Source of the DNA: a virus
Reading direction: 5' to 3' (one strand)
Length of the DNA: 38,554 bases
IMG/VR virus record: IMGVR_UViG_3300035695_000013
Location: 1-38,554 of that record
The position numbers were made by a program, and so were the translations under genes. Below are positions 12,568-38,554 of this stretch, one piece after another (within the stretch, counting starts at the first letter, position 1; each line of letters opens with the position of its first letter). A model generated the notes under the pieces. It saw only the letters and a list, made by a program, of their open reading frames with translations, was not told where the DNA came from and made no database searches.

Positions 12568-14078
12568 CAGATCTGTACTCCATCATCAAAATTACTCACG
12601 GTCCGCCTAAACTCAGATTGAAGCGTTTGAATAAAATTAGATGCAATACTTTCCGCATCTTTTGCTAAAGTATTAATAGTAATTGCCCCGGTGCTCACCG
12701 TAACATTTTTATTTAATAAGCTATTTTGACTGCTGGTGCTATTAGTAGTTCTAGAAACAATAGGCACATTAGCGGTAGCCTTAACCGCTTGTTTTCCAGG
12801 CTCTATCGTCATAGCTAGTTTAGTTTTATGGTCTCCATGTAAAAAATTTTTAACCTTAAAATACGCCGACTCGATATCTTGAATTGCACTCATGACCGCG
12901 TGTACTGTTTTCATAACTGCCGCCGTAATCGCGTCCCAGATCTCAACAATACCGTGCCCAATATCTTTAGCCACAGCCCCCCGTGCTTTATGAACAGCTG
13001 CGATAAATTTTTCAATAGGTTCAATGTGCTTTTCTACTTCGGGTTTAGCTTTCTCCCACGCATCATGAATATCTTTACCCCATTCTTTAGTTTTTTTACT
13101 TAATCGTTCAAAACCATAAACAACGAGGGCCCCGGCTGCGGGTAATAACGCTAGCAAACCCACAATCAGGGCAATCCCTATGGCTAATTCACCAAAAGTA
13201 ACCACCGCTATTCCTATGGATGCCGCTACCGCTAACCCTAAACCAGATAAAAGACCCGTTAGAACCGGGGTATTATTTCCTAAATAAACGACTACTTTTG
13301 TTAAAGCATCAACTACTTTTCCTAAGATCGGTAAAATCTGGATGTCCATTTTTAAAAAGGCGATATTAAGTGCGGTGCCTAAATCTAACCAACTATCGGT
13401 AAATTTATGAACCGTAGCGCCACTTTGGCTAGTGACTAACCCCAGTTCTTTTTGTCGCTTAATAAGCTTATCAATCTCTTGAGTACCTTGTTCCAACATT
13501 AAAATAGTACCCGGATCAAAGCCAAGCTCTCTGCCTAGCTGAATATTTACTAAATGAGGTAAAGTATGGAATCGCGCTGCAACTTCTCTTAAGATTTGAA
13601 AGGGATCTTTAGTTTTACCTTTATTATCATTAATCGAAATACCCAGTTGAGCTTGAAGAATAGAGGGTAACGGACCTGCTCCCAGAGTTTTATAAGCCGC
13701 AAGATTATTTACAAGTCCTGTCAAACTACCTTGAAATCCTTGAATACTTCCGCCACTTTTTTCAGCGGCATGCCCCCAAGCGTCTAATTGCTCAGTACCC
13801 ACGCCCAATTGTTTTGATAAGAAGAATAATTTTTCTGAATATTCGCCCGCAGATTTAAGACCTTCAATCGCTTTATCGGTAGAAATAAATGCGAGCATAA
13901 CCTCACTTAAACGCGTGGCTATCTGTGTAAAGGATTCACCTAAATCTTTTGAAACTTTTTGTGTGGCTGTTAAAGAAGTACTGAGTTTATCCGTGGCTAA
14001 CTTAGCTTCTTGTTCGCCTTTTTTAACTTCTGCAGAATTTGTTTTTATTACAATCCACAGGGTTTCTAAAACATTCAT
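12567..14078 (-). CDS. Tail tape measure protein
   Basis: A 503-aa protein: N-terminal long helices (about 1-90), a central hydrophobic block (about 268-325, GLAVAASIGIAVVTFGELA and a following Ala/Leu-rich stretch), and further helices. This is the tape-measure pattern, and it lies directly downstream of the frameshifting chaperone genes, as in nearly all long-tailed phages. At 503 aa it predicts a rather short tail. The hydrophobic block may enter the host membrane during DNA delivery. Confidence 0.9.
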   Translation of the reverse strand: MNVLETLWIVIKTNSAEVKKGEQEAKLATDKLSTSLTATQKVSKDLGESFTQIATRLSEVMLAFISTDKAIEGLKSAGEYSEKLFFLSKQLGVGTEQLDAWGHAAEKSGGSIQGFQGSLTGLVNNLAAYKTLGAGPLPSILQAQLGISINDNKGKTKDPFQILREVAARFHTLPHLVNIQLGRELGFDPGTILMLEQGTQEIDKLIKRQKELGLVTSQSGATVHKFTDSWLDLGTALNIAFLKMDIQILPILGKVVDALTKVVVYLGNNTPVLTGLLSGLGLAVAASIGIAVVTFGELAIGIALIVGLLALLPAAGALVVYGFERLSKKTKEWGKDIHDAWEKAKPEVEKHIEPIEKFIAAVHKARGAVAKDIGHGIVEIWDAITAAVMKTVHAVMSAIQDIESAYFKVKNFLHGDHKTKLAMTIEPGKQAVKATANVPIVSRTTNSTSSQNSLLNKNVTVSTGAITINTLAKDAESIASNFIQTLQSEFRRTVSNFDDGVQI

Positions 14079-14640
14079 TAGCGATTCCTTTTACTTTGTC
14101 GTTCCGCATGTTTCATAGCAAGATGCTCATTGACACGAGTGACTGCTATGGTTTCCCAAAGTAAAAAAGCATCTTCTAAAGTGTAGATTGTTCTGAGTTC
14201 GTGGAGTTTTGCTTTGTCGTTTGCGATAATGACTCCAATGAACTCATCAATATTTTCGTAAGAAACTGTGGGAGCTTCTGGAACAGGCCAGAAACCCAAT
14301 TTGAGAAGCTCCCATTCGCGAAAAAAGAGCAATTATACTCCATGATCGCGATTTCAATTTTTAACAGCGTTTCCCAAGAATCTACATGAGAATCTACAAG
14401 ACCCCGTGTCGAAAGTTGAACTTCCATATTTTCGCTCATTGCTGCTACATAACTCATAATCTTTAACATGATTTCTTCATTCGTAGCATATTCACCTAAT
14501 TTTGGTAAAGCAGAAGTAGGATATTTGTAAATAATTTCACGTCCTGCTATCGCCGGAAATTTAGATATAACGAAAATTTTTTCTGTCCCGTCCGAAAGAG
14601 GAATAGAGACCTTTTTGGGCTGTAATAAAATTCTACTCAT
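14078..14640 (-). CDS. Tail assembly chaperone, -1 frameshift fusion (gpGT-like)
   Basis: Product predicted when ribosomes slip at T_TTT_TTC (14326 down to 14320): 107 residues are read in the first frame, ending CSFF, then reading continues in the -1 frame as REWELLKLGFWPVP to a stop at 14078, about 187 aa in all. The downstream frame has no ATG and only a TTG just before the slip site, so it cannot easily be a separate gene. A 10-bp stem follows the slip site after 6 bases. In lambda and many other phages the ratio of G to GT made this way governs tail-tube assembly around the tape measure. Confidence 0.85.
14176..14640 (-). CDS. Tail assembly chaperone, unshifted product (gpG-like)
   Basis: A 154-aa helical protein between tail tube and tape measure. 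N-terminal part: VSIPLSDGTEKIFVISKFPA, typical of small tail chaperones that begin with a beta segment. After CSFF it continues in frame as ANGSFSNWVSGLFQ and a Ser/Thr/Asn-rich tail that is probably disordered. It would be the major product; the frameshift form is made at lower level. The ATG overlaps the tube stop by one base. Confidence 0.8.
   Translation of the reverse strand: MSRILLQPKKVSIPLSDGTEKIFVISKFPAIAGREIIYKYPTSALPKLGEYATNEEIMLKIMSYVAAMSENMEVQLSTRGLVDSHVDSWETLLKIEIAIMEYNCSFFANGSFSNWVSGLFQKLPQFLTKILMSSLESLSQTTKQNSTNSEQSTL
14270..14326 (-). promoter_or_regulatory. Programmed -1 ribosomal frameshift element
   Basis: On the minus strand: heptamer TTTTTTC (14326-14320) in phase as T_TTT_TTC, a 6-base spacer, then a stem of ten perfect pairs, GGGAGCTTCT (14313-14304) with AGAAGCTCCC (14279-14270), around a 24-base loop. 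Heptamer, spacer length and stem are all canonical. Confidence 0.9.
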
Positions 14641-15095
14641 TAGATAGCCGCCAATGTTCTGGTTTGAAATTTAAACATATAGGTTTTAGTTTTAAGACGA
14701 CCCACACTAGAGAGTGAAGTACCGGGCATACCATCAGAAATAAAACCATCCACGTACGTGGCTGTGATCCCAAGATTAGGATAAGTTGCGACGATACCTA
14801 CAATATCACTCACATTGAGCTTACCTTGCGCGGGGCGATTGGCTTCAAGCAGATAGGTTAAATTCTCGTCATCTGGGCTACCCGCCAAAACGTTCAAAGT
14901 TAAATCAATTGCTTTAGCTACTTTCCATTTTGCCAAAATACCATTGACCGTCATAGCGCCATCCGCAATTTGAATCGATGGAAACTCAATACCATCGCTA
15001 TCATCAGCAAAAGCAGTAATCGGCACGCCGGTGGGATAGGTAATGTTCGCTGTTAATAAAAGTAGCGTTCCAAAACCAGCTATATCTTGTGACAT
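14640..15095 (-). CDS. Tail tube protein, DUF3277 family
   Basis: A 151-aa protein immediately after the sheath. It has the tube pattern: GFGTLLLLTANITYPTGVPI, DGAMTVNGILAKWK and YVDGFISDGMPGTSLSS, i.e. a beta-sandwich with a loop used for hexamer stacking. DUF3277 is the usual neighbour of DUF3383 sheaths. It would form the inner tail tube around the tape measure. Confidence 0.85.
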   Translation of the reverse strand: MSQDIAGFGTLLLLTANITYPTGVPITAFADDSDGIEFPSIQIADGAMTVNGILAKWKVAKAIDLTLNVLAGSPDDENLTYLLEANRPAQGKLNVSDIVGIVATYPNLGITATYVDGFISDGMPGTSLSSVGRLKTKTYMFKFQTRTLAAI

Positions 15096-15106
15096 TTATA
15101 ATCCTC

Positions 15107-16615
15107 CTAGATCAATACGTCGGTACCAACAATTTTACGAATAACATCATTCTTTTTGTAAATCAGTAAATAGGTTGCTTCTCCGGTTACCCCATCTACT
15201 GTTACCGTTAAATAATAACCGTTACTTTGGACTTGACGCCAAGCTCTAGGATTATTAGTCAAATTAGTAATATCGGCTTTTTGATCAGCATCTAAAAAAC
15301 TATTAGTACTGATAGTCCCATTTAAAAGCGCCTGATTAATCACGGGTTGCAATGCACTAATGATCTGTGATTTACCTTGGTCATCCGCAGATAATGAAGG
15401 CAACGCATTTAATAAATTAAATAGAGCTGCGGTAGCATCTGCTTTTAACCAAATCTCATTAACATAAGTACCGATATCCGTAGCATTGGTCGGCTCTTCA
15501 AAACCTGATAAAACACCACGCTGGTAAAATGATCTTTGTTGTCCTGCGGTTTGCGTTAAACCGTAATAATTTACGAACAAAGCATCATATCCATCGGCAT
15601 CCGTATCCGTTGATACCGAAGCAGTTAAATTACTCGCGGACTGATACATGTAATCTTGGACTGAATTAGCTTTACTATAATCTGTTGCGCCTAAAATAGT
15701 GCAAGGTAATTGCTCTGGATATTCCGTTGAAATAGGTGCCAACGTCATTGCCGTACCACCAATTCCACTCAATGCAGTAGAAATAGCACTCGCATTAGAA
15801 ACAGAAACCGGAGTTGCGAACATATATTTAAAATTCAAATCTTCATTCCAAGTAGTCACCTCAACAACCTGAGCTTGATCTAGTGTTGGGATAAACAAAA
15901 AAGAACCAAAATTATCAGAAGATGAATCAGAATTAGTTAATGTGGTTGTAAGTGTCTCAACTAATGAACCATTTGAAAAAATAGGTCCATTAGGCCATTC
16001 TAGACCAGGTAACCAGCCAATCAACGCACGAATATCCACACCGGTTGCTGCGGCAGCAATAGCAATATTATCTGCTACTGTTTCACCACCTACAAAATTA
16101 AATCCATTAGTCCCTGAAGCATAAGTAACAGTGGATTGATCCCATTGATTGTCAGTATCCGCGGCGCGAATCGCTGTTTGAAGTAACGCTGCTACACCCG
16201 CGAAACTAACTGCCGCCGAAAAATTTAGCCCGGTAATGTCATGACTAACACCACCCAACGTCAAATTAAAAGATCCCGTAGTAACCGCCTGTAATTGGCC
16301 CAAAGTAGCCGATAAGTTCTGACCATAAATCAAAGGAGCAACTGCGGTATCTACCCAGCGTGAATAAGAAATAAATTGCGCGCGAGTATCATTTTTGCTA
16401 GTGAAACCAAAATAATCCGCCGCGCGTAAATATTCTTCAGATGAAGTACCAAAATATTCGCCCACTTCTGAAATATTTGAAAAAGTTACAATCCCCCCCG
16501 TAGGAATCAAAGGGTTTGTACTGAAAATTCTTAGCATCAAAGTACGGGTGGGAACTGGATTACCTGCGCCGACACCGGAAGTAATATCTACATATCTGGT
16601 TATACTAATGGTCAT
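15107..16615 (-). CDS. Tail sheath protein, DUF3383 family
   Basis: A 502-aa protein. It opens MTISITRYVDITSGVGAG, then a RTLMLRIFSTNPLIPTGG segment, and ends with a beta-rich domain (YYLTVTVDGVTGEATYLLIY). The start, length and position before the tube match DUF3383 contractile sheaths. Its presence is the clearest sign that the phage is a myovirus. Confidence 0.9.
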   Translation of the reverse strand: MTISITRYVDITSGVGAGNPVPTRTLMLRIFSTNPLIPTGGIVTFSNISEVGEYFGTSSEEYLRAADYFGFTSKNDTRAQFISYSRWVDTAVAPLIYGQNLSATLGQLQAVTTGSFNLTLGGVSHDITGLNFSAAVSFAGVAALLQTAIRAADTDNQWDQSTVTYASGTNGFNFVGGETVADNIAIAAAATGVDIRALIGWLPGLEWPNGPIFSNGSLVETLTTTLTNSDSSSDNFGSFLFIPTLDQAQVVEVTTWNEDLNFKYMFATPVSVSNASAISTALSGIGGTAMTLAPISTEYPEQLPCTILGATDYSKANSVQDYMYQSASNLTASVSTDTDADGYDALFVNYYGLTQTAGQQRSFYQRGVLSGFEEPTNATDIGTYVNEIWLKADATAALFNLLNALPSLSADDQGKSQIISALQPVINQALLNGTISTNSFLDADQKADITNLTNNPRAWRQVQSNGYYLTVTVDGVTGEATYLLIYKKNDVIRKIVGTDVLI

Positions 16616-22919: not shown

Positions 22920-24499
22920 AACAAATCATTCTCGTTAAACATCTGGCCAATATTCCATTCGTTTACTCCTGCTTTTCCTTCTTCGGGATCATCTATCGAA
23001 CTTGAATCAATATCTGGAGTAGCGGGATTACTTTCACTGGATTCATCTTCAAGGCCACTATAGCCGCTATAGGGGTCATTAATAATACGTTCTCTTTCGT
23101 CTTGAGCGTCAATAGCCCCAGAGGTAATAAGTGTTTGTCCTGCGCGCGCTTTAGATTCATTGATCGAAGCAATTTGTTCATCACTTAAAGTAGAAGCTTT
23201 ATTCCAGATAACTTTAGTAGAAAAGGGCATATCGGGAAGTATTTCAGAACGAATCAATAAATCATGATGACGTTCAATAACTGGTGTCAAATGCGAAACT
23301 TGAATACTTTCTAAAGTCTCATGATAACTACGTTCATCATATTCTCCCGTAGCATTAAAGCCTTTAGGAGTAGTCCCCAAAATCTTAGTTGCCGGGACAC
23401 CGGATGCCGCAGCCACAAGTTGATACTGTGTCATAATCACATCATTCAAATCTGCTAACGACGTATCATATTGCTCTACTTCATCGGCATTATCTATACA
23501 TTTAATGCCATAATTATCGCGAATTTTAGCAAAAAAGTTTAATCGATCTGAGAAATCTTCTTCGTTCGCAAGTGCTGCGGCCATATCCGTTTTTAAAACC
23601 ATTAATCGTTTTGTCATCGCTAATTGTGGAGCTTCATTGGCCGTACGTTCTGCGGCGTATACACGATCTAAAATCATTTGGGGGATTGGAATACCACCAT
23701 AAAAATAAGTGGGTTTTAAGATATCCGGCAGTTCCGCGGTACGTGCGATCATTAAATGGGTCCTGTGAATACGCTGATCATTCACACGCCACCAGGTCGG
23801 TTCATAAAAATACATGGACGCGGGGTTACCTGCGGCTTCAGCATCCAACTCGGGGGTAATCCAGTACGGATCAACTTGAACCATTCCTCTATAACTTCCG
23901 GGGGTTACTCCGTCTAAATTAAAAGGCTTTTCGTAATACTTTGGATCTTTCGAATCCACTTTAAAATACATAATTCGAATACCATAGATACGACAAAACC
24001 GTTCGTATTGTTCCAGATTATAGTTAAGCCGATATTTCAAATCCCCCTCACGGATAGCATCTCTAATTTCGGGGTCAATTTTAGTCCCGTCATTAATAGA
24101 AATTTCAAATCCGGGTCGTACCGCATCTATACCGGGTAAACTACAAGCCCGATTAATAAGCCACTGCTGTGCAAGGATACCTGCGGTTTGATATCCGATA
24201 AAACCTTGTGAAGAATACCACGCTAATTGTGCTTCAGAAATTGTAGAAAAATTGCTATTAGAACCTATAAAAGGCTTAATCGCGGCATCCATTCCTAATT
24301 TTTTAAGTGCCGGTGCTAAATCATCACTCGCATTACGTTGGATATGTCTTTCAACAAAACCATCCATCGAGGTAATTTGAGCATAATCTTTAGCAAATCC
24401 ACGACGGCGGTATATACCCTGCGGTTTTTCTTTTATAACCTCGGGTTTCGGTAGTCCATTTTTATAGATTTGATACGCGAGCTTTAATCTATCCCACAT
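22916..24499 (-). CDS. Portal protein, DUF1073 family
   Basis: A 527-aa protein. The start at 24499 (MWDRLKLAYQIYKNG) is favoured over 24535 because AAGGGA lies 7 bases upstream; it overlaps the terminase end by 11 bases. Portal features include LAWYSSQGFIGYQTAGILAQ, LAQQWLINRACSLPG, a stem-like region (AASGVPATKILGTTPKGFNA) and TGEYDERSYHETLESIQ. The NTPATKLLGxxPxGFNATGE-type box is the DUF1073/portal signature. It would form the packaging vertex. The last 50 residues are Ser/Asp/Glu-rich. Confidence 0.9.
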   Translation of the reverse strand: MWDRLKLAYQIYKNGLPKPEVIKEKPQGIYRRRGFAKDYAQITSMDGFVERHIQRNASDDLAPALKKLGMDAAIKPFIGSNSNFSTISEAQLAWYSSQGFIGYQTAGILAQQWLINRACSLPGIDAVRPGFEISINDGTKIDPEIRDAIREGDLKYRLNYNLEQYERFCRIYGIRIMYFKVDSKDPKYYEKPFNLDGVTPGSYRGMVQVDPYWITPELDAEAAGNPASMYFYEPTWWRVNDQRIHRTHLMIARTAELPDILKPTYFYGGIPIPQMILDRVYAAERTANEAPQLAMTKRLMVLKTDMAAALANEEDFSDRLNFFAKIRDNYGIKCIDNADEVEQYDTSLADLNDVIMTQYQLVAAASGVPATKILGTTPKGFNATGEYDERSYHETLESIQVSHLTPVIERHHDLLIRSEILPDMPFSTKVIWNKASTLSDEQIASINESKARAGQTLITSGAIDAQDERERIINDPYSGYSGLEDESSESNPATPDIDSSSIDDPEEGKAGVNEWNIGQMFNENDLL

Positions 24500-26129
24500 T
24501 GAAAAATCCCTTACGTATGCGATGTTCGGGTGCAAAAGCTATCATACATGCATCCGCATAATTTGGCGACCTTGAACCATCGGGCATTTTGTCAATAAGA
24601 ATTTTACCTACATCATTTTGTTTATACGTAGGTTGCGAAAGCTCAGTTACTAATCTTCGATACTCCGGGTTAGCACTAGAAATTGAAATAATCTGATCTT
24701 TATCATACTCCTGCTTTTCAACCACAGCTCGATACGTGTTTTGGAATCGCTTACGCAAAAGCCACCATGCTTGTGCTTTAGCATTAGCAAAGAAATCCGC
24801 GTTAGTTCGACCTTTCGAATATTCCACTTTTTGTGTGGATATACCTTTAGTGGGTTTAGCCGGAGGGAAAACCTCCGCATCCGGTTCAAATACTTCTCCT
24901 GAGCCTCGGAAGGGCACAAATTCAATTTGATCATCTTTCGGACGTTTCCCATTAATACTTCTAGCATCCCCGCGCACTCCCGCGCCCATGCCATCCGAAT
25001 CAAAAATGACTAGGGGGTAATTATAGACATCGCAAATACTCGCCACTCTTTCCGTTGATCGAAGAATATCACTATCTTTACCCGACCAAGCCTCCACATG
25101 TTCCACAAGAATACCGTAGCGACCGATAATGGCATTTGCATCCCGACCCTCATCCGCTACGTCAAAACCAACTTTACGTAAGCCACTGGGGGCTATACCG
25201 AGTTTAACGTGGGCATCAATAGCCGCTTGTACCCAAGACGCCGGAATTAAAACCCCTTCAATTGAAGCGGTATAATTTAAATCCAATTCTTGGGCGATAA
25301 TCACAGGGTCATCAATGCGTTTACATTCTTCTTGATACCACGCGTCATCTTTTCTCGGATCATCGCGCCAGTGCATGCTCATAACCGGAATTGCACCAGA
25401 GAAACGCTTTCGTGCGAAAGTATTATTAGGCCCATGAGGCGTGGATACATAGATCAAACATCGCGTAGCTTGTGATAGCGCCGCATCAATACTTTCCGCT
25501 TTCTCATACCATGCGGCTTCATCTCCGACAAAAATAGTATACCGGTTACCTCTGCCCATATTCGGACCAGATTCACCTATAATTACTGATTTTGTATGCG
25601 GGATAAATATTTTTCGGTGGGGAGCATCCTTTTTAAGATCCCATGCGCCGCGAAATTCACGGGGGGTGAATTGAATATAGTGGCGCGCCTTTTCGAAGAT
25701 ACAACCCGGATTACCCAATTGATCAACATAGCTTTCTTTATGAGATCCAAAGCCGCAGGTGACATCATCGTAAAGAATACAAATTGAAGAAATCACCGCG
25801 ACCAATAGCCACGTTAATCCCATTTCACGAGATTTATCAATCAGCATCCAACGTCGATTTTTCCAATTATCAATAACCCAGTTAACAATTTCTTCTTGCT
25901 TGGGGAATAATAAAAACGGCATAACCGCAGGTAAATTCAAATCAACATTGCGGGGATCCACAGTCGTTCCCCAGTCAATAATAAATTGAGCAATATTATC
26001 GCGATAGAATTTTTTTAAAGGCGCTAAATCTTGAGGATTTTTTCGAAGGCGATCCATTCGTTCTAATCGCCATTCGAATATTTTATAGTAGTCGGGGTTC
26101 CTAAAATCAAAAGCAAATGGCAATGGCAT
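24489..26129 (-). CDS. terL: Terminase large subunit
   Basis: A 546-aa DNA-packaging motor. ATPase: Walker A variant DKSREMGLTW (about 98-107), Walker B TIFVGDEAAW (198-207) and the coupling motif YVSTPHGP (227-234). Nuclease: acidic residues in KVGFDVADEGRD (Asp323), LVIFDSDGMGAG (Asp377) and SPNYADACMI near the end. All core motifs are present. It starts one base after the stop of the upstream 216-aa gene, showing coupling with a block of surface proteins rather than with a small terminase. Confidence 0.95.
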   Translation of the reverse strand: MPLPFAFDFRNPDYYKIFEWRLERMDRLRKNPQDLAPLKKFYRDNIAQFIIDWGTTVDPRNVDLNLPAVMPFLLFPKQEEIVNWVIDNWKNRRWMLIDKSREMGLTWLLVAVISSICILYDDVTCGFGSHKESYVDQLGNPGCIFEKARHYIQFTPREFRGAWDLKKDAPHRKIFIPHTKSVIIGESGPNMGRGNRYTIFVGDEAAWYEKAESIDAALSQATRCLIYVSTPHGPNNTFARKRFSGAIPVMSMHWRDDPRKDDAWYQEECKRIDDPVIIAQELDLNYTASIEGVLIPASWVQAAIDAHVKLGIAPSGLRKVGFDVADEGRDANAIIGRYGILVEHVEAWSGKDSDILRSTERVASICDVYNYPLVIFDSDGMGAGVRGDARSINGKRPKDDQIEFVPFRGSGEVFEPDAEVFPPAKPTKGISTQKVEYSKGRTNADFFANAKAQAWWLLRKRFQNTYRAVVEKQEYDKDQIISISSANPEYRRLVTELSQPTYKQNDVGKILIDKMPDGSRSPNYADACMIAFAPEHRIRKGFFNVG

Positions 26130-26130
26130 T

Positions 26131-26781
26131 TTATGCCCCGATGCTTCCTGACAAAATCCAAGTATCCGTAGCTATTTTTTTCAATCGCATCACCGCGTAT
26201 TGATTTGCCGCCGATAAGGTAGCCGCAGGGTTAATAGTCACACCGCCTGTCGCTGCAATTGTTAATTTACCCGCGCCCAACTGCGCCAATTCAATCTCAG
26301 TTCCCACGGGGAATGCCGCTGTCGCATTTAAGGGTACAGTAAAAGTTTGCGCTGCCGCATTACTTGCTCCGATAAAGGTGTTTGCATCGGTAAGCGCAAA
26401 TGTATATGTAGTTCCGGTGTAAGTATTAGGGCCTAACGGACGAAAGGACCGTAATGATCCGGGAGCTACTGCAACCCCACTTAATAATGAAAATGTTGCT
26501 TGCGTCCATACGGCTGCAGCAGCAATACCCGCAGTCGTACAAATCCATAAAATTCCGTTAGTAGTATCCCAAACCATATCCGCTAATGCGCCTGCGATAA
26601 CAGTATTGGGGTTTCCTGCATTAGTCACAGCTCCCTTCGCATACGCTTTTAAAACCGAGGCTAAAGCAGCGCCATTATTACCTGTAGCCGTATGTGGAGT
26701 TGCGTTTAGATAAACCAGCATGGTATCTAAAACGATAGAAATCGGATTATCAATAAAAACTTGGCCTATATCTCGTGACAT
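26131..26781 (-). CDS. Virion surface protein with shared N-terminal anchor
   Basis: A 216-aa protein whose first 13 residues, MSRDIGQVFIDNP, match the start of the 581-aa fibre at 29924 with one change. The C-terminal half (TFTVPLNATAAFPVGTEIEL, LTIAATGGVTINPAATL, then a WILSG ending) is a common fibre-tip module. I interpret it as a short decoration or fibre protein using the same docking peptide as the larger protein. Function inferred from composition and context. Confidence 0.7.
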   Translation of the reverse strand: MSRDIGQVFIDNPISIVLDTMLVYLNATPHTATGNNGAALASVLKAYAKGAVTNAGNPNTVIAGALADMVWDTTNGILWICTTAGIAAAAVWTQATFSLLSGVAVAPGSLRSFRPLGPNTYTGTTYTFALTDANTFIGASNAAAQTFTVPLNATAAFPVGTEIELAQLGAGKLTIAATGGVTINPAATLSAANQYAVMRLKKIATDTWILSGSIGA

Positions 26782-26981
26782 TATTCTGCTCCTTCTTGGG
26801 GGTTACCGGGTAATTCACCCGTAGGAATAGCCATTTCTGGTGCTTGTAAGCTATCCATTTTAATTTTGTTCAAAATAAAATTAACGTGTGAAAGCACTTT
26901 CATACCTTCCTGCTTTAATGCCGCGTCCATTAAATAACCGAGTATTTTATCTGTGGTTTCATCAATAACTAACCGATTCAT
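26781..26981 (-). CDS. Small hypothetical protein
   Basis: A 66-aa protein with a helical first half (ILGYLMDAALKQEGMKVLSH) and a Pro/Glu-rich end. It overlaps the next gene by one base. Its position inside the late surface-protein block suggests a virion or assembly role; nothing recognised. Confidence 0.6.
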   Translation of the reverse strand: MNRLVIDETTDKILGYLMDAALKQEGMKVLSHVNFILNKIKMDSLQAPEMAIPTGELPGNPQEGAE

Positions 26982-26983
26982 TT

Positions 26984-27286
26984 TTAAGCTCCATAATTTA
27001 AGTAATTTATTTCTGGATCGGGAACAGGATTAGGTTCCCCCTCAATTTGTTGTAATTCTATATTTTCGGGGGTGTGTACTAAACCACAAGGTACTTCTAG
27101 TCCTAACGCATACCCCGCTATAAACATCCCTATTCCTAAGAATGCCCATTCAATACATAAATACCCTGAATTATTCTCTCCCCGATTTAAATAATTCGCC
27201 GCTAGAATTATAGGTATTACTGACATACTAACTGCGGTAAATCTAATCGCAGGCACCTTTAGTCTTTTAAAAAATTCACAACTCAT
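26984..27286 (-). CDS. Membrane protein with two transmembrane segments
   Basis: A 100-aa protein. The ATG at 27286, four bases past the upstream stop, is preferred to a GTG at 27304 inside that gene. Two hydrophobic stretches (FTAVSMSVIPIILAANYL and WAFLGIGMFIAGYALGLE) are separated by a short charged loop; the C-terminus is Pro/Glu-rich. A membrane protein in a late structural block is unusual; it could be an extra holin or exclusion factor, but there is no direct evidence. Confidence 0.6.
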   Translation of the reverse strand: MSCEFFKRLKVPAIRFTAVSMSVIPIILAANYLNRGENNSGYLCIEWAFLGIGMFIAGYALGLEVPCGLVHTPENIELQQIEGEPNPVPDPEINYLNYGA

Positions 27287-27290
27287 AAAA

Positions 27291-27653
27291 CTAAACTGCC
27301 TCACCTTCTAGATTAATAGAAATTGTCTGCGATGCCCCGGTTGACCCAATCGCTACGTTAATAAAAATATCCGTATTTGCCGCAACGATATGACTTAACT
27401 GCGGAACTTCAATTTCAAAAGTTTGATCCGTTTCTACCAGCCCGGTTAGTACGGTTGCGGGTATAATATTATCGTAATCTTGAGCATTGGTTCCTACGCT
27501 AATAGTTGGGGGAATAGTTATTTGTGACGCTGTTTTACAATAAACTAATATTTTTATAGGGCCAAAAACGAGCGGAAAATTTTTAAACAAAAATGCAGAC
27601 CCTACTACTGTGGCGTCTATTAAATTAGATTTATATATGATTGTACTAGCCAT
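27291..27653 (-). CDS. Beta-rich surface protein
   Basis: A 120-aa protein starting MASTIIYKSNLIDATVVG, with AAGGAG 8 bases upstream. It appears to be a beta-sandwich (ILVYCKTASQITIPPTISVG, ending TISINLEGEAV). An in-frame extension reaches back to 27731 (MACRRCEERRDKIKSFINK) with no stop between; see findings. Probably a virion decoration or fibre-associated protein; no family recognised. Confidence 0.65.
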   Translation of the reverse strand: MASTIIYKSNLIDATVVGSAFLFKNFPLVFGPIKILVYCKTASQITIPPTISVGTNAQDYDNIIPATVLTGLVETDQTFEIEVPQLSHIVAANTDIFINVAIGSTGASQTISINLEGEAV

Positions 27654-27720
27654 TTTATTACTCCTTTTAAATATCTTATTAATGAAACTCTTTATTTTAT
27701 CTCGTCGTTCTTCACATCGT

Positions 27721-28179
27721 CTACACGCCATATTGAGCCCAATAAATAACAATCAAATTACCTTGTGATTGTACTGTAGCATCCGTAATACTAGTAACTG
27801 GAGTCCCGCTATTATTTTCATCCATTTGCATAGTAATCACATCGTTGGCTAAACAATTGGGTATTAAAAAATGATCGTGAAAATCAGTACAATCTGTATT
27901 AGTTGTTACCCATGCTTGATTATAAACGGGCGTACCGCTTCGAGTATTAGTAACCTTAACTGTTCCATCACCCACGCCGCACCGCCATCCCGACAATCTA
28001 AATTCATAAATCCCTGCGGCGGGCAAAATAATTCCAGTATAAGGGGCGGATCCTTGAAAATATTGGGCCCCAATATCAACTTGATTAAAAGTGACCGCAG
28101 ATAAAGAGCCAGTCGAGGCCGCGTGTGAATAACGCGCGTTACACAAAATTGAAGAACTACGGGGTACTTTGTAAGACAT
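27721..28179 (-). CDS. C1q/TNF-like jelly-roll surface protein
   Basis: A 152-aa protein. The ATG at 28179 overlaps the fibre stop (ATAATG) and has GGAG upstream, so it is preferred to 28194. The pattern VTFNQVDIGAQYFQ, then ILPAAGIYEFRLSGWRCG, then a final NLIVIYWAQYGV is that of C1q-like beta sandwiches (PxAGIYxF followed by a hydrophobic last strand). In phages such domains often form trimeric receptor-binding tips. Function is inferred. Confidence 0.7.
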   Translation of the reverse strand: MSYKVPRSSSILCNARYSHAASTGSLSAVTFNQVDIGAQYFQGSAPYTGIILPAAGIYEFRLSGWRCGVGDGTVKVTNTRSGTPVYNQAWVTTNTDCTDFHDHFLIPNCLANDVITMQMDENNSGTPVTSITDATVQSQGNLIVIYWAQYGV

Positions 28180-29924
28180 TATAAAACACTCCATTCAGAA
28201 CCGTTATAAACCATATCGATAGAACCATAATTTGTGTTAATTACATAATTAGCTGCTCCATCGATAGTCCCAGATGCCGGTGTGATTGTAATATTATTAG
28301 TATTCGCCGCACCGCTAATATCTTTAATCCTATAGGTTCTACCTGTAACTGGAGAAGAAATTAACGTAATAGCTATAGTCCCCGCGCGATTACATGCCAA
28401 TACAAAATCGGTAGTTAATGTAGTATATGTAGCTGCCGTAACTGAAGTAACCGCATGGACTTCACCGCCATAAAAACTTGCCAAGCTACGAACATACGCA
28501 CTATTCGTCCCAAAATTACCTAACGCATCCATGCTAGTTGCTTCAAAACTAGTAGTTTTCCCAGGGATATCAAAAGCAGTAGCTGCAACTGTTTGCGAAG
28601 GTGTAACAGTCATTGAAGTTGTACTTCCGACCGCAGTAATAAAAGCAGTACTACCGGTAGAAAATCGAATCATATGGCCTATGTATGTACTATCCCAGCT
28701 TGTACCCACCCCCGTAACTGTCGTTGTCGATTGGGATGCAGTTTGATTGCTTGAATTATTAGGCGCTGTCGCCAAACTCGATGTTATAGATAATGTTCTT
28801 GCGCCAGCATTAGGTAAATTCAAATAGGTACCCGTGGCAGTTCCTAATGCTAAATATCTAATATTTGTAAATAATGATATAAAACTACCAAAACCTGAAT
28901 TTCCCGAATCCAGAGCGGAAGCAAAATTTACACTATTTGGAAAATAATAAAGCGTACATGCGGTACCAGGAGCAATCGTTTGGGAAACATTCGTTGGGAC
29001 TGTGGTTGTTCCTTGATATGAAACGATTGTAAATGGAGATCCAGTCGCTGGCACTACATATGCGCTCGCCAATGAACTGGATACACCCGCAATGGTGGCT
29101 AAGATCCCGGTTTGAGACATGGTGCTTACAACTGCGGTCGGCTGAAATAAATAGTTATTTGTATTGGTTATACTCCCAACGACCGCGCCCCCCGCCAAAG
29201 GCAAATATGAAGCTAAATTAGCCGTAGTAGCCAATGTCCCGGCGATAGGAAATGTAACCGCCGTATTGGCCGTAAACGTAAAAGCGCTTGTAAAAGCACC
29301 AATAAATGCCGCACTACCACCTAAGGTTAATGTGAATGCTCCGTTATCAACCCCAGTTCCACCATATGCTGGCGATATTATAGAACCATTCCAAATACCG
29401 ATATCAATGGCAAGACTAACTGGATCGATAGAAAAGCCAATTAGCGAAGTTAATGCGGTTGTTCTACCAATTCTAAAAGAATCGCTAGTAATCTCATCGC
29501 CCATTACCCAAACGACACCGCTACTATTATTCACAAAAGAACATTTTGGTGTAATTGTCGCCGGATTATCACTCTGAAATACTAACGCAGAATTTATATT
29601 TACTTGGGCGTTCGCATTCAATACCCCACTTAAAGTACCGCCGCTCAATGGCAAATATGCGCTTAAATTTTCGATTGTAGCTAAAATACCCGCACTAGGG
29701 AAAGTAAGATCGGTATCAGCAACAAGCGTAAAATTACCGGTAAAACCACCAAGCCAATTAATTTGATCTAAATAAGGATTTATTAATTGCTGTAAAACCG
29801 AGTATTCAATCGCGCCATTATCGGGGGATGAATCATGAGCACCTTCATTTATATACATCAACGCAGTAGGCGATGGATTCGTTATGGGGTTATCGATGAA
29901 TATTTGCCCTATATCTCGTGACAT
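28179..29924 (-). CDS. Large repetitive tail/capsid fibre
   Basis: A 581-aa protein. Residues 1-13 (MSRDIGQIFIDNP) are the anchor shared with the 216-aa protein. Two related modules occur at about 58-100 (FTGNFTLVADTDLTFPSAGI) and 205-250 (FTSAFTFTANTAVTFPIAGT), each followed by an ATxxNLxxYLPLxGG box. The middle is Ser/Thr/Ala-rich. The C-terminal module (about 510-581: TGRTYRIKDISGAANTNNIT ... VYNGSEWSVL) is a common fibre end. It probably binds host surface structures. Confidence 0.8.
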   Translation of the reverse strand: MSRDIGQIFIDNPITNPSPTALMYINEGAHDSSPDNGAIEYSVLQQLINPYLDQINWLGGFTGNFTLVADTDLTFPSAGILATIENLSAYLPLSGGTLSGVLNANAQVNINSALVFQSDNPATITPKCSFVNNSSGVVWVMGDEITSDSFRIGRTTALTSLIGFSIDPVSLAIDIGIWNGSIISPAYGGTGVDNGAFTLTLGGSAAFIGAFTSAFTFTANTAVTFPIAGTLATTANLASYLPLAGGAVVGSITNTNNYLFQPTAVVSTMSQTGILATIAGVSSSLASAYVVPATGSPFTIVSYQGTTTVPTNVSQTIAPGTACTLYYFPNSVNFASALDSGNSGFGSFISLFTNIRYLALGTATGTYLNLPNAGARTLSITSSLATAPNNSSNQTASQSTTTVTGVGTSWDSTYIGHMIRFSTGSTAFITAVGSTTSMTVTPSQTVAATAFDIPGKTTSFEATSMDALGNFGTNSAYVRSLASFYGGEVHAVTSVTAATYTTLTTDFVLACNRAGTIAITLISSPVTGRTYRIKDISGAANTNNITITPASGTIDGAANYVINTNYGSIDMVYNGSEWSVL

Positions 29925-29933
29925 TACTTATCC

Positions 29934-30845
29934 TTAAGATTGACCCGTTAAAAGAAAACTTCCACCACCGGTTAAGAGAAAACTAGATAATCCTGAATTT
30001 CCCGTTAATAATAATGAACCACCAACCATAAAGCCCCATTTGGTTAATAAATATTTTTGAACTTGAACCGCTTGTGCAGGTGTATGCATAGAAGAATACA
30101 ATATGATTTCAAAAATATTACAACTCAATAAATTTGCACCGGTGTTAGATTGTCCTAAATAATTATTAGGCGTTAATCCCATAGCTGAAGGTTGCGATAA
30201 ATCACCCCCTATCGCTGAAGTAATCGCTTGAGGTGCACCATTTACATTCATTGACCATTGCGTTTCGGGTGATCCAAAAATATAGGTATCACAAGTTGGA
30301 GTAGTTAACGATGCCGGCATACTATTATAAAAACTAGCGCTAGCTGCCGTCGCCGCATTGGCGAAAGATAATTTACGCCCCTGGCCTCCAGAGGCATTAG
30401 GCGTAATTTCTAAATAAGTCGAACTATTCACACCAATCGACAATAGGGCCGCATCATCTACGACACTAGATTCTGTGGAATAAACCGCATATAAAGTCAT
30501 ACCATTGGCTTGAGTTAACAAATTGGGCGGAATAGTATAACTTTGATTAGGGGGATTACGACCATCTAAACTGACACAAGGAAGTCCGTTAAGCTGATTA
30601 CGAAAGAAATTAGCATGAGGCTCTCCCCCAAAAACAGCATTATTCGTATTCCCCGATTTATCATAAAAAATGGGTAAAACCGTACCGTCATTTGGTACCA
30701 CCCCCGTATTCAATGGGTTCGCAGCGTCTAACCACATCTTTAAGTTCTGAGTGGGTATAATTCCACTGCCGGGGACATTGCCGCCACCGCCGGGTGTTAC
30801 TTTGAATATCTCAAGCCATTTTAGAAAATCACTTGCTATAATCAT
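29934..30845 (-). CDS. LamG/concanavalin-like lectin-domain virion protein
   Basis: A 303-aa protein. After a short Gly/Pro linker, residues about 35-265 show the lectin-sandwich pattern: LKMWLDAANPLNTG, FYDKSGNTNNAVFG, LPCVSLDGR, MTLYAVYSTES and CNIFEIILYS, then YLLTKWGF. The last 28 residues carry three LLTG-containing repeats. It probably binds carbohydrate on the host or a surface, from the capsid or tail. Start overlaps the neighbour's stop by one base. Confidence 0.8.
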   Translation of the reverse strand: MIIASDFLKWLEIFKVTPGGGGNVPGSGIIPTQNLKMWLDAANPLNTGVVPNDGTVLPIFYDKSGNTNNAVFGGEPHANFFRNQLNGLPCVSLDGRNPPNQSYTIPPNLLTQANGMTLYAVYSTESSVVDDAALLSIGVNSSTYLEITPNASGGQGRKLSFANAATAASASFYNSMPASLTTPTCDTYIFGSPETQWSMNVNGAPQAITSAIGGDLSQPSAMGLTPNNYLGQSNTGANLLSCNIFEIILYSSMHTPAQAVQVQKYLLTKWGFMVGGSLLLTGNSGLSSFLLTGGGSFLLTGQS

Positions 30846-31045
30846 TACTGCACCTCGAATGGCGTAATGTTCGTCATATTACCGTCGGTCCAAGTCAAAG
30901 TTTGTATATAGGTTTCATTTTGATACTCAACCGTAATCGTCACAAGATTATTACTTCCGTCATACCCGAATACTTGGGTAAGATTAGCTAGCGGCAATTG
31001 AACCATTACACCTTGACTATTGATTACATTAAGGACTTCAGCCAT
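30845..31045 (-). CDS. Small beta-rich late protein
   Basis: A 66-aa protein. The ATG at 31045 with AGGTGA about 6 bases upstream is preferred to a GTG at 31054. It is probably an all-beta domain (MVQLPLANLTQVFGYDG, LVTITVEYQNETYIQTLTW). It may be an attachment piece for the lectin protein that follows. No family recognised. Confidence 0.65.
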   Translation of the reverse strand: MAEVLNVINSQGVMVQLPLANLTQVFGYDGSNNLVTITVEYQNETYIQTLTWTDGNMTNITPFEVQ

Positions 31046-31123
31046 TTTATTCACCTATCAAATTTTAGCAGTTGGATCAATATTAATCGGTTTTGAGAAG
31101 TTTGTCTTATAATTTTTCAGAGA

Positions 31124-31555
31124 TTATGAACCCATAATCTTTTGATAGATCTTTGACGCTTCTACGGCATCGATATCTTTCGGTAAAACATGCGTGTCAT
31201 TGGGACGTTCGGTGCCCACTTGATCCCGCGTCAATTTGATTAATCGTTCTGCTTCTTCGGCACTCATCTTCCCAGTGATCGCAGTTTTTACAATTTCATC
31301 GTGCAATTTTTGTACTGTTGCCACCGTAAGCTTCGGCGGGCAGTCAAAACCGACGGCTTCACGATTCATACGGGGCACAATTCGTTCCACCCAAATTTTA
31401 ATAGCGGTGGTATCCCCAGCCTCTGCGAGTTCCAAAAGTTTCTTTACAATCGGAGCACTACCGTCAATCAAATCCTGTAATATTTTTTGACGTTTATCTT
31501 GTATACCTTTTGGCCTCCCTTTCGGATTCCCTGATTTTCCTTTTTTAAATCTCAT
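31124..31555 (-). CDS. DUF5681 protein, possible terminase small subunit
   Basis: A 143-aa basic protein, first gene of the late operon. It opens MRFKKGKSGNPKGRPKGIQD; the KGxSGNPKGRPKG box defines DUF5681, a DNA-binding-looking family frequent in phages and often next to terminases. The rest is helical (APIVKKLLELAEAGDTTAIK). In this genome it is the only candidate for a small terminase, though it is separated from the large subunit by about 5 kb. Recognition of packaging DNA in the adjacent control region is an attractive inference. Confidence 0.6.
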   Translation of the reverse strand: MRFKKGKSGNPKGRPKGIQDKRQKILQDLIDGSAPIVKKLLELAEAGDTTAIKIWVERIVPRMNREAVGFDCPPKLTVATVQKLHDEIVKTAITGKMSAEEAERLIKLTRDQVGTERPNDTHVLPKDIDAVEASKIYQKIMGS

Positions 31556-31597
31556 AATGTTCTGATTTTCTTCTGTTACGGCTAAATTACAAAAATA

Positions 31598-31611
31598 CCA
31601 CAGCTCTGCGG
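31598..31611. repeat. Imperfect dyad near late operon start
   Basis: CCACAGCTCTGCGG has 6-base arms with one mismatch around two central bases, about 45 bases upstream of the first late gene. Possible operator for late transcription. Confidence 0.4.
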
Positions 31612-31669
31612 TTATTTCATCCTAAAAACATATACCCAGTATAATCACGCTGCAGAAATTGGTTTTGTG

Positions 31670-31685
31670 CATATGCCGGTATATG
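31670..31685. repeat. 16-bp near-palindrome with GGTATATG half-site
   Basis: CATATGCCGGTATATG is a palindrome except for one pair. Its right half is the GGTATATG box found elsewhere in this region, so it looks like a binding site for a dimeric regulator. Confidence 0.5.
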
Positions 31686-31716
31686 TTTTCCCCATACCCA
31701 GGGTTAATCGAGTTCG

Positions 31717-31751
31717 GGGTGACTTCGGGGAATTAGTACGGGGAGTCACCC
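31717..31751. repeat. 8-bp inverted repeat spanning first CGGGG cluster
   Basis: GGGTGACT (31717-31724) and AGTCACCC (31744-31751) are perfect inverted arms with a 19-base loop, followed by TTTT on the plus strand. It could be a weak terminator or a protein site. Confidence 0.5.
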
Positions 31752-31765
31752 TTTTCTCTATCTAT

Positions 31766-31810
31766 CTTATTAATTAATATAATATTTATATAAATATATA
31801 ATATATAAAT
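31766..31810. other. AT-rich tract, possible DNA-unwinding element
   Basis: About 45 bases composed almost only of A and T, with alternating TA steps (TTAATTAATATAATATTTAT and onward), between the first CGGGG cluster and the long inverted repeat. This would melt easily, as expected at an origin. Confidence 0.5.
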
Positions 31811-31844
31811 ACCCCAATACCCCATAGGTTAAGCTGTACTATAG

Positions 31845-31903
31845 AAAAGGTAGAGTAGGGTATATGATTGTGGATATAAAACATATACCCTACTCTACCT
31901 TTT
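31845..31903. repeat. 22-bp perfect inverted repeat
   Basis: Arms at 31845-31866 (starts AAAAGGTAGAGT, ends GGGTATATG) and 31882-31903 pair at all 22 positions around a 15-base loop. Each arm includes one GGGTATATG box. T's follow on the plus strand and the mirror gives T's on the other strand, so it could act as a bidirectional terminator, cruciform or dimeric-protein site. Confidence 0.8.
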
Positions 31904-32085
31904 TATATGTGTGGGTAGAGTGACGGGGTATCGGGGAATTTGAGTCGGGGAAAGCCTTAAAAATCTTTATAAATCAATAGGTTATAGATTTCCCCCTACG
32001 AGAAAATTTGTGCGGGGAATCACGGGGACACCCGGGGGATTTTTTTGAATTAAATTTGACAGATGACTATGTAGGGTATATGATT
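31855..32085 (+). repeat. 15-bp direct repeats GTAGGGTATATGATT
   Basis: Exact copies at 31855-31869 and 32071-32085. The second covers the -10 element of the early promoter. The shorter box GGGTATATG also occurs inverted at 31629-31637 and 31882-31890. Confidence 0.75.
32056..32084 (+). promoter_or_regulatory. Sigma70 promoter for the plus-strand early operon
   Basis: TTGACA (32056-32061), 17-base spacer, TATGAT (32079-32084): six of six at -35, five of six at -10 and ideal spacing. The predicted start is about 28 bases before the first gene at 32119. A GGGTATATG box overlaps the -10, suggesting direct repression. Confidence 0.8.
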
Positions 32086-32118
32086 TGTTTACTATGAATA
32101 GAGCCAAGTAGTATAACA

Positions 32119-32382
32119 ATGCGACAAAAGACACGCAAGCAATCTGAGAATGACGGCGATAAAAGATTCTATACGGGAATTCCTTGCCGCCAGGGCCACG
32201 ATTCATTTCGCTACACGAGCACGGGCAATTGCTGCGCCTGTATTACTATTTACCGCCGTAATTATAGAAAAAATAATAGGAAGGGGATGCGATTGTTTCA
32301 AGTATATGTATATCCCCAAAACTTACAACCGCTTAAAGAAATGGCAAAAGCCATGAATGTGGCCGTAGAACTTATGCAATGA
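32119..32382 (+). CDS. Small zinc-ribbon protein
   Basis: An 87-aa basic protein, first gene after the strong promoter. The middle segment FYTGIPCRQGHDSFRYTSTG, then CCAC, matches the zinc ribbon (G-x-PCxxGH-xxRYxxxGxCxxC) that precedes HNH or endonuclease VII domains in phages, but no nuclease domain follows. The C-terminal part (FQVYVYPQNLQPLKEMAK) is a separate small module. DNA binding is likely. The ribosome site is weak. Confidence 0.65.
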   Translation: MRQKTRKQSENDGDKRFYTGIPCRQGHDSFRYTSTGNCCACITIYRRNYRKNNRKGMRLFQVYVYPQNLQPLKEMAKAMNVAVELMQ

Positions 32383-36768: not shown

Positions 36769-37047
36769 ATGGAAACCTATTTTGTTGACGTGCTAGTTAA
36801 TGGATCTACTAAGATTATCAATATCCACGGTCGTTCAAAACACGAAGCGGTCATTAACGCCCTAAACCTAATGAACCGAGAGACCATCATGTCTCAAAAG
36901 AACAAAGAAGGTCGTTGGGTAAACTATGGAAATAACCTATTCCAGTACTGCGTAATCGACCGTAACCGCCTTTTACCGCGGTTTATCGCTAAGAGCGATG
37001 CCTACCTCGTAAACGCGCGTCATCAATCTTCCTGTGCCTCCATATAA
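36769..37047 (+). CDS. Small hypothetical protein
   Basis: A 92-aa protein preceded by GGAG. It has an N-terminal beta/alpha part (METYFVDVLVNGSTKIINIH, SKHEAVINALNLMN) and a basic end. A lone plus-strand gene whose last 25 bases overlap the converging primase-helicase gene. No family recognised. Confidence 0.65.
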   Translation: METYFVDVLVNGSTKIINIHGRSKHEAVINALNLMNRETIMSQKNKEGRWVNYGNNLFQYCVIDRNRLLPRFIAKSDAYLVNARHQSSCASI

Positions 37048-38554
37048 GCTTTTTCAATCTGAACGGGATCACTGATGTTTAACGCATCGTGATCCTTCTT
37101 TAAAAATAATCTAGGTTTACCGGCATCTGGCATGACACGGCTATTAGTACGACCGCCCGTTAAGTGTGGATGCATCACATAATCTAGCTTCAATAAAAAT
37201 TCCTTACGTCGGTTCCTGGGGATCTTACGCTCTGCACGTATACGTTCAAATAAGCGCTGTAACTGTATGGATGAAATCCACCCGCCGCGAAAGCCTGGGG
37301 TACCATCTTCAATACATTCTAGAACTTCTTGTTCGACTGTACCTAAACTGTAATTAATCGATTGAGAAGTACAAGAAGTAATAGGCGCAGGCTCTCGATT
37401 AGCGGGGTTGAATTCCGGCGGGATTTTATAAGAATATAAATATTCATTAACAATTTGATAGCCGCCTTCTTCAAACCAGCGCCAAAGCTTGTGGAAATAA
37501 TTACCCGTAAGACCATGGCGTTGTAGATCACCTTTGTTCTGTTGTGGACAGAAGAACGGTGCGAAACGACGTTCTGTTTCATCTTTGCGAATACCATCCT
37601 TAAAGTTACTGGTGATTACAAAGTTACAACAAATATCTCGCATAATCTTATTTTGACCCATGGAACGAATTTCTAAACGACTTTCGGTAATCCACGTTTT
37701 TAGGGTCTCAATAAATTCATCTGAGAAATAAGAAGTTTGAGCATCATTAATCCCGATAAATATTTTACGATAAATCCAGTCGTTAAATTTTTCATCAAGA
37801 TTTTGAATATTGGGGCAGTGTGAATACCGACGTCCAATGGCGTAAGTTAAAAATACCAATAATAAGGATTTTCCATTACCCGGCATTCCCTGGATAAAGG
37901 GAGCCCATGAAAATTTAACACCGGGGTGTTGTACTAATGCGGCGGCGTAGGATGTAATAATCACACGGTCGGTATCATCAGGGAATAATTTTACAAGATG
38001 ATTTACGAAAGGCTCTGCATTCCCGGCTTGGCGTTTAATACTAGGTGGAAACCATAGGTTTACTAGGCGTATTCCTTCTTCCGGGACAATAACTCCTGGT
38101 TGCAAACTCGGTCTAAAGCAGGTAGATTCCGCCAAGCATTTCTCTTTCTTGCTAAGTGCCTGGGATTGTGTGAAGGCTTCCCAGGCATTCCTTGAGACCT
38201 TTTCGTTCTTAAGGTCTAAAGGAAAACTATATCCTGAATAGACGGTTTTAAATTGCGCCTCAGTTAAGAGATGCCCTCCCGGAATTAAAATCTTATGTTC
38301 ATCGATCACATAAGTACATCCTTTGAATTTTTCTTTTTGTTGATCAAAGTTTAAAAAAGTTGCTTCGGTATTAGCCATTAATTCAGGTATTTCATAGCCC
38401 ATTTGTTCTAATTTTTGTACTTCGACATTGGGTTCAACCATCTTATCTTTAAGCCACTGAGTCTGCCGTGCGCATGCCGTCAAGATGGTATAGGGCAGAT
38501 AATCAGACCCCGTGGGATTTGTAGAATAAGCGTTTCCACGATTCCATTTATCCC
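37023..38554 (-). CDS. Primase-helicase, DUF5906/D5-like ATPase (5' part outside window)
   Basis: The frame is open to the window's end, so the N-terminal part, perhaps with a primase domain, is missing; the TTG at 38483 is not a true start. The helicase has Walker A QGMPGNGKSLLL, a Walker B-like KIFIGINDAQT, and the sensor and arginine-finger segment CNFVITSNFKDGIR, then ETERRFAPFF, characteristic of superfamily 3 phage/plasmid helicases. The C-terminal part has a winged-helix-like region (SSIQLQRLFERIRAERKIPR). It would unwind DNA for the family A polymerase encoded at the other end of the window. Confidence 0.85.
   Translation of the reverse strand, partial: DKWNRGNAYSTNPTGSDYLPYTILTACARQTQWLKDKMVEPNVEVQKLEQMGYEIPELMANTEATFLNFDQQKEKFKGCTYVIDEHKILIPGGHLLTEAQFKTVYSGYSFPLDLKNEKVSRNAWEAFTQSQALSKKEKCLAESTCFRPSLQPGVIVPEEGIRLVNLWFPPSIKRQAGNAEPFVNHLVKLFPDDTDRVIITSYAAALVQHPGVKFSWAPFIQGMPGNGKSLLLVFLTYAIGRRYSHCPNIQNLDEKFNDWIYRKIFIGINDAQTSYFSDEFIETLKTWITESRLEIRSMGQNKIMRDICCNFVITSNFKDGIRKDETERRFAPFFCPQQNKGDLQRHGLTGNYFHKLWRWFEEGGYQIVNEYLYSYKIPPEFNPANREPAPITSCTSQSINYSLGTVEQEVLECIEDGTPGFRGGWISSIQLQRLFERIRAERKIPRNRRKEFLLKLDYVMHPHLTGGRTNSRVMPDAGKPRLFLKKDHDALNISDPVQIEKAYMEAQED

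Follow-up and report, generated by a model that had tools for sequence, protein, structure and literature searches.

In phage lambda, cosB places terminase boxes and an IHF site (R3-I1-R2, with the IHF site between the boxes) upstream of terS, and the parS site of P1 arranges its boxes around an IHF site. The SaPI Rep and Cch2 helicases recognise iteron origins via their C-terminal domain (PMC7581432). The biochemistry of NrS-1-type primase-polymerase-helicases is well studied, and the portions of the NrS-1 literature at hand (PMC7102993, PMC8718748) describe no origin array and no natural origin beyond an 8-nt motif, TTTGGTTA, the known priming site of the NrS-1 primase (PMC8718748). Here, we describe a region of repeated boxes, an AT tract and an IHF-consensus site that is a testable candidate for where and how phages with NrS-1-type primases start replication.

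The window, i.e., the whole stretch of DNA analysed, spans an entire IMG/VR virus record (38,554 bp), whose ends carry no repeats. A gap of 563 bp, flanked by a leftward DUF5681 gene and a rightward 87-aa gene, holds the features listed here with its neighbours and the primase gene.

31124 to 31555, minus strand: DUF5681 gene, 143 aa, probable small terminase (Pfam DUF5681, E 2.7e-13), first gene of the leftward late operon.
31556 to 32118, no strand: divergent non-coding region, 563 bp, gene-free; candidate origin and early/late promoter region.
31625 to 31689, no strand: inverted pair AAAACATATACC (31625-31636) and GGTATATGTTTT (31678-31689), operator-like, from a repeat search.
31715 to 31743, plus strand: CGGGG triplet 1, boxes starting at 31715, 31726 and 31739.
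31767 to 31811, no strand: pure A/T run of 45 bp, candidate DNA-unwinding element, the longest in the window.
31809 to 31823, minus strand: two opposite-strand boxes ATACCCCAATACCCC; the pair (31807-31823 as an inverted-repeat arm) is 88% complementary to triplet 2 (31925-31941), from an inverted-repeat search.
31845 to 31903, no strand: hairpin with arms at 31845-31869 and 31879-31903, 25 nt each and 96% complementary, and a 9-nt loop.
31924 to 31950, plus strand: CGGGG triplet 2, boxes starting at 31924, 31932 and 31946.
31956 to 31988, plus strand: IHF-consensus site AATCAATAGGTTA at 31972-31984 with its upstream A-tract, from a consensus scan and blastn.
32013 to 32038, plus strand: CGGGG triplet 3, boxes starting at 32013, 32023 and 32033, immediately upstream of the rightward promoter.
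32056 to 32084, plus strand: sigma-70-like promoter TTGACA-17-TATGAT, 11 of 12 consensus matches.
32119 to 32382, plus strand: zinc-ribbon-like (phrog_1081/ICEA-like) gene, 87 aa, which adjoins the same region in B2 and in loci L104, L106 and L055.
37023 to 38483, minus strand: NrS-1-type primase-polymerase/SF3 helicase, C-terminal 486 aa (DUF5906), its N-terminus missing at the contig end.

We find nine CGGGG boxes in the gap against 0.84 expected, a count reached by 0 of 5000 order-1 shuffles of the gap, and the second-largest cluster in the whole window has four; the three same-strand triplets described in a first-pass annotation are thereby borne out. Spacings are 11 and 13 bp in triplet 1, 8 and 14 bp in triplet 2, and 10 and 10 bp in triplet 3, so that the one-turn spacing claimed there holds roughly (8-14 bp) but not strictly. 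The boxes do lie on both sides of the AT tract, as was also claimed, but asymmetrically, with one triplet to the left and two to the right, and the reported inverted repeat is present with arms that measure 25 nt rather than 22. That annotation lacked the IHF-consensus site, the sigma-70-like promoter, the AAAACATATACCC repeat and four C-run boxes on the opposite strand (CCCC at 31690, 31812, 31820 and 31992), which bring the G-run boxes to 13, in both orientations and spread over more than 300 bp of the gap. A G-quadruplex reading was set aside, as G4 runs number only three per cluster, and Rfam and tRNA searches gave no match.

The runner-up to the 45-bp A/T run is 24 bp long, and GC content over 50 bp reaches its window-wide minimum (4%) inside the gap. 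The hairpin has a DNA fold z of -9.1, and its arms contain the GGGTATATG repeat; it was considered as a two-way terminator, which its left A-tract and right T-tract fit, yet it stands upstream of both divergent genes, and this reading was rejected. The second repeat, AAAACATATACCC, has five copies in the gap, and CATATACC is enriched, with seven occurrences in the window versus 1.6 expected, five of the seven in the gap. Members of the AAAACATATACCC(TAC) family are found at 31625-31636, 31678-31689, 31858-31889 and 32071-32085, plus 33370 and 33537, and copies stand around the leftward -10-like hexamer, in the hairpin arms and over the rightward promoter; the family looks like the operator of a phage regulator. 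Promoters can be proposed in both directions: rightward TTGACA-17-TATGAT, where a GTAGGGTATATGATT copy of the repeat (32071-32085) overlaps spacer and -10, and leftward a possible -10, TATACT (complement of 31638-31643), recognised only by eye inside the AAAACATATACC/GGTATATGTTTT pair. Promoter-like matches in the stretch of the rightward promoter number no more than the shuffle level.

The IHF-consensus site sits between triplets 2 and 3. Nucleotide similarity to the whole gap is absent from plasmids and is confined in phages to the IHF stretch and short fragments; distant blastn matches are mainly of ≈30 bp and lie in non-coding DNA of unrelated phages. Such matches to the IHF stretch stand beside eight 15-bp tandem repeats in Shewanella phage 1/44, upstream of a primase/polymerase gene in Klebsiella phage YX3973, and near TGTGGATAA repeats resembling DnaA boxes in Cronobacter phage A24, and all three are WATCAANNNNTTR sites with an upstream A-tract, similar to the H′ site of lambda. 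The repeats of phage 1/44 (L088, 2800-3030) are CAGTTAACCCGGCAT, adjoin the IHF-consensus site and appear origin-like, though unannotated. An exact scan of viral contigs for the IHF element of the window returned 0 matches. The IHF stretch also has a weak match in a 2,953-bp "plasmid" that is recorded under many genera and may be a control or vector contaminant.

The structural genes of the window are of the SEN34/B2 type, and its polymerase A and primase are common to Scuro, SppYZU01 and B2, while VP16T-like phages share the polymerase only. The syntenic gap architecture is kept in about 60 related phages. In nine of eleven genomes compared, the syntenic divergent gap contains the genome's lowest-GC 50 bp or nearly so, and most carry lineage-specific GC-rich boxes. 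Vibrio phages CKB-S1 and 1.009.O have GGGG repeats ≈12 bp apart, upstream of a TTGAC promoter directed towards the primase operon, and these occupy the position of triplet 3.

A search with the primase alignment (A1) gave 80 viral and 10 genome loci; for 48 loci with a detectable TerS or neck gene we took the gap upstream of it, ending at the ICEA-like gene where one was found and otherwise at a set length of 600 bp, and these fixed-length gaps may contain some coding sequence. In 32 of these 48 primase-bearing relatives, the locus has its 50-bp GC minimum inside the gap. The IHF consensus occurs 23 times in 26.3 kb of gaps versus 22 times in 692 kb elsewhere, a 27-fold enrichment, and 26 observed occurrences in gaps compare with 1.6 expected from shuffling and, for scrambled versions of the motif, 2.8 on average; only scrambles that nearly copy the motif approach the observed count. 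Among 55 non-redundant gaps, 29 contain three or more copies of GGGGTA (2.4 expected) and 24 of CGGGGT (0.6 expected), with consecutive same-strand G-runs at 8-15 bp spacing numbering 92 against 11.4 expected; the CGGGG boxes of the window are therefore the local version of a family-wide repeat. Of 45 gaps, 38 have boxes to the left and right of the AT minimum, and the closest loci, L104 and L106, have the same box types adjoining IHF sites. A second word, AGCGGC/CCGCTA, characterises part of the relatives, and by shuffling a significant box repeat is absent in 25 of 60 gaps. The box word alone is non-diagnostic, since a strict scan of viral contigs for three CGGGGTA gave 72 matches, of which only about ten seem to come from phages of this kind and the majority resemble ordinary tandem repeats. 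The first-pass annotation had held that lack of conservation of the boxes in relatives would tell against its reading; we find that boxes, AT tract and IHF site are kept.

The arrays follow the replication module. When at least four GGGGTA within 450 bp are required, box arrays are found in 28 of 80 primase loci (1,203 kb) versus 0 of 80 loci with a related TerL and without this primase (1,238 kb), figures that give an association rather than an independent count because the loci share descent; in 21 of 21 primase loci with a defined gap, the arrays are inside it. Boxes, AT tract and IHF-consensus site exceed chance, hold their position in relatives and co-occur with the primase module; the region is conserved and non-coding, and it accompanies the replication primase, not the packaging enzyme.

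We find that the best solved match of the window primase model (pLDDT 88) is the NrS-1 C-terminal region (E 1.1e-19), with the SaPI5 primase-helicase and PriRep1 ranking lower among the fold matches. The full-length relative in L055 comprises HBD and DUF5906 (PF22763 and DUF5906 matches), and the family profile matches NrS-1 primase chains with E 1e-37 (N-terminal) and 5e-16 (C-terminal). The window primase belongs to the NrS-1 type, with PrimPol, HBD and SF3 in the family and the N-terminus lacking from the window copy. The contig ends within this gene and starts shortly before polymerase A, and a few kb are probably missing from it, since relatives have a helicase and several genes between primase and polymerase A. 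The C-terminal 116 residues of the primase run helix-strand-helix-helix-strand-strand, a winged-helix-like order; because Foldseek gives no significant match for this domain, we only infer from the model that it may bind DNA. The NrS-1 priming motif is unenriched in the window and absent from the gap.

Judged from the sequence, the gap at 31556-32118 is somewhat more likely than not a replication origin region of the iteron/A+T-tract/IHF kind, serving at once as the divergent early/late promoter region. Clustered repeats beyond chance, an adjacent A/T-rich tract and conservation at the same place in relatives are origin-type features. We infer that replication would start in the gap as follows: the (C)GGGG(T/A)A boxes flanking the A/T tract would be bound by a phage initiator, for which the NrS-1-type PrimPol-helicase encoded 5 kb to the right is the likeliest candidate; IHF would bend the DNA at 31972-31984 and bring the box arrays together; the 45-bp A/T run would melt; and the hexameric SF3 helicase would load and prime. 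The origin design put forward in the first-pass annotation is thus supported, short of proof, by conserved boxes, AT tract and IHF site and by arrays that go with the primase; GC skew, proposed there as a check, just follows gene direction and is uninformative on the origin.

The main rival, possible but not what we expect, is that the gap serves divergent early/late transcription control only, with boxes that bind a phage or phage-modified regulator, an A/T tract of promoter type, IHF in an architectural role and replication starting elsewhere. Wherever it can be placed, the region lies between the early genes and the first late gene, and a late operon, beginning with TerS or neck, always starts from it, a placement that an origin does not require. 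A strong sigma-70-like promoter stands at its right edge, with the second repeat covering the spacer, and the outermost box on either side tends to be 25-34 bp away from a -10-like hexamer; box-to-hexamer distances in this range number 12 versus 3.0 expected on the late side and 13 versus 4.1 on the early side, a preference that fits transcription control. Also against an origin, Jedunaviruses, e.g., Klebsiella phage KpV52, carry two near-identical copies of the region, before TerS and before Neck1, each preceding a late block. Set against transcription alone, KpV52 restarts three other late blocks without a region copy, the arrays follow the primase family, and a simple operator would not need 13 G-run boxes that point both ways and extend across more than 300 bp around the window's A/T-richest 50 bp. 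The two Jedunavirus copies, the constant position at late-operon starts and the box/-10 distance keep transcription control in full contention. All observations would be accounted for by an origin combined with a promoter region; transcription control by itself would leave more of the AT tract, the IHF site and the array size unexplained.

The copies of KpV52 (L194) are at 47225-229 and 13985-14389, and Jedunaviruses mostly have two copies of ≈370 bp about 14 kb apart; one copy matches 71 records at 146 places. No IHF-consensus site is found in the KpV52 copies.

Packaging is unlikely to be the function of the region, although the first-pass annotation allowed for it: here the gap would be a cos or pac site read by the DUF5681 small terminase, in the manner of lambda cosB with boxes and IHF upstream of terS, and the order triplet 2, IHF site, triplet 3 does resemble R3-I1-R2. 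The gene bordering the region is, from its sequence, very probably TerS, as was suspected in that annotation and is now well supported: the C-terminal tail EASKIYQKIM of the DUF5681 protein is found in one of 138 window ORFs, and of 39 TerS candidates located next to related TerL genes, 18 have this tail motif. A search of viral contigs for DUF5681 homologues found none. The gene is ≈5 kb from TerL (24489-26129), and a cassette of that length with tail-fibre-like genes lies between the two, the span from TerL through the DUF5681 gene being 24489-31555; the spacing of these genes in L104 and L106 points to a like arrangement there.

Even with DUF5681 as the probable TerS, the DNA next to its gene need not be a pac site. 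The records of VP16T, 1.009.O, CKB-S1 and SFCi1 start at one conserved sequence in the neck-TerS interval, outside the region, and 1.009.O, PD0307 and AeroV have a short sequence repeated at both record ends. VP16-type records (L095, L099, L100 and L101) share the start GTTTGGAATCTGCCCC in slightly varying form, together with an AGGTTCTTC element to its left. This start, between neck gene and TerS in relatives with the same kind of region, is probably the cos of the VP16-type group. Moreover, a related TerL combined with another replication module comes with arrays in none of 80 loci, phage 689R2 has merely about 60 bp before TerS, and the region precedes the neck gene rather than TerS in half of the relatives. 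Arrays that track the primase and not the terminase, together with a probable cos elsewhere, thus argue against packaging and for replication.

A partition or plasmid-maintenance site with parS-like boxes around an IHF site is very improbable, because no ParA or ParB was recognised among the window genes searched and the region is conserved across lytic Jedunaviruses, even though the box-IHF-box layout resembles P1 parS and a protein with a ParB/sulfiredoxin-like start (by eye) adjoins the region in L104. In this closest relative, the 411-aa protein (14993-16228) replaces the TerS gene at the left border.

The origin reading might be extended, as a rather speculative proposal, to a family-wide origin type in which the NrS-1-type PrimPol-helicase would read the boxes as iterons, melt the A/T tract with IHF, self-load as a hexameric helicase and prime de novo at the boxes, acting as initiator, helicase and primase in one; the two Jedunavirus copies would then cooperate like ori and crr of P4. 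Cultured Klebsiella and E. coli Jedunaviruses hold box/AT-tract versions of the region, mostly in two copies, which makes a direct test feasible, and the region is a marker for origins in uncultured relatives.

Compared with known systems, the region resembles lambda cosB in that an IHF site upstream of terS has boxes to its left and right, but the probable cos of its relatives is elsewhere and window-type arrays do not follow the terminase. It shares primase family, boxes, AT tract, promoter and the place before TerS with the Jedunavirus intergenic regions, which differ in having two copies per genome, the second before Neck1, and, in KpV52, in lacking an IHF-consensus site. With pRN1-type origins (PMC4234260) it has in common a replication protein with PrimPol and SF3 helicase and a large stem-loop, in the window the hairpin with 25-nt arms; the pRN1 stem-loop lies behind the replication gene without box arrays, and the relatives examined show no hairpin of the window's form. 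The primase-polymerase of phage NrS-1 (PMC7102993, PMC8718748) has the PrimPol, HBD and SF3 parts of the window's primase family, and its Tail domain is reported there as a novel fold, whereas the window primase has a winged-helix-like C-terminus. The SaPI/SCCmec Rep/Cch2 origins (PMC7581432) are likewise short repeated boxes in non-coding DNA, and the initiator helicase/primase that uses them belongs to the same broad class as the window primase; in SaPI the origin comes straight after rep, whereas in the window clade ≈5 kb separate the region from the primase gene and it lies between early and late operons that diverge, and where SaPI/SCCmec Rep is a self-loading helicase that works with iterons, the window primase is the putative box binder.
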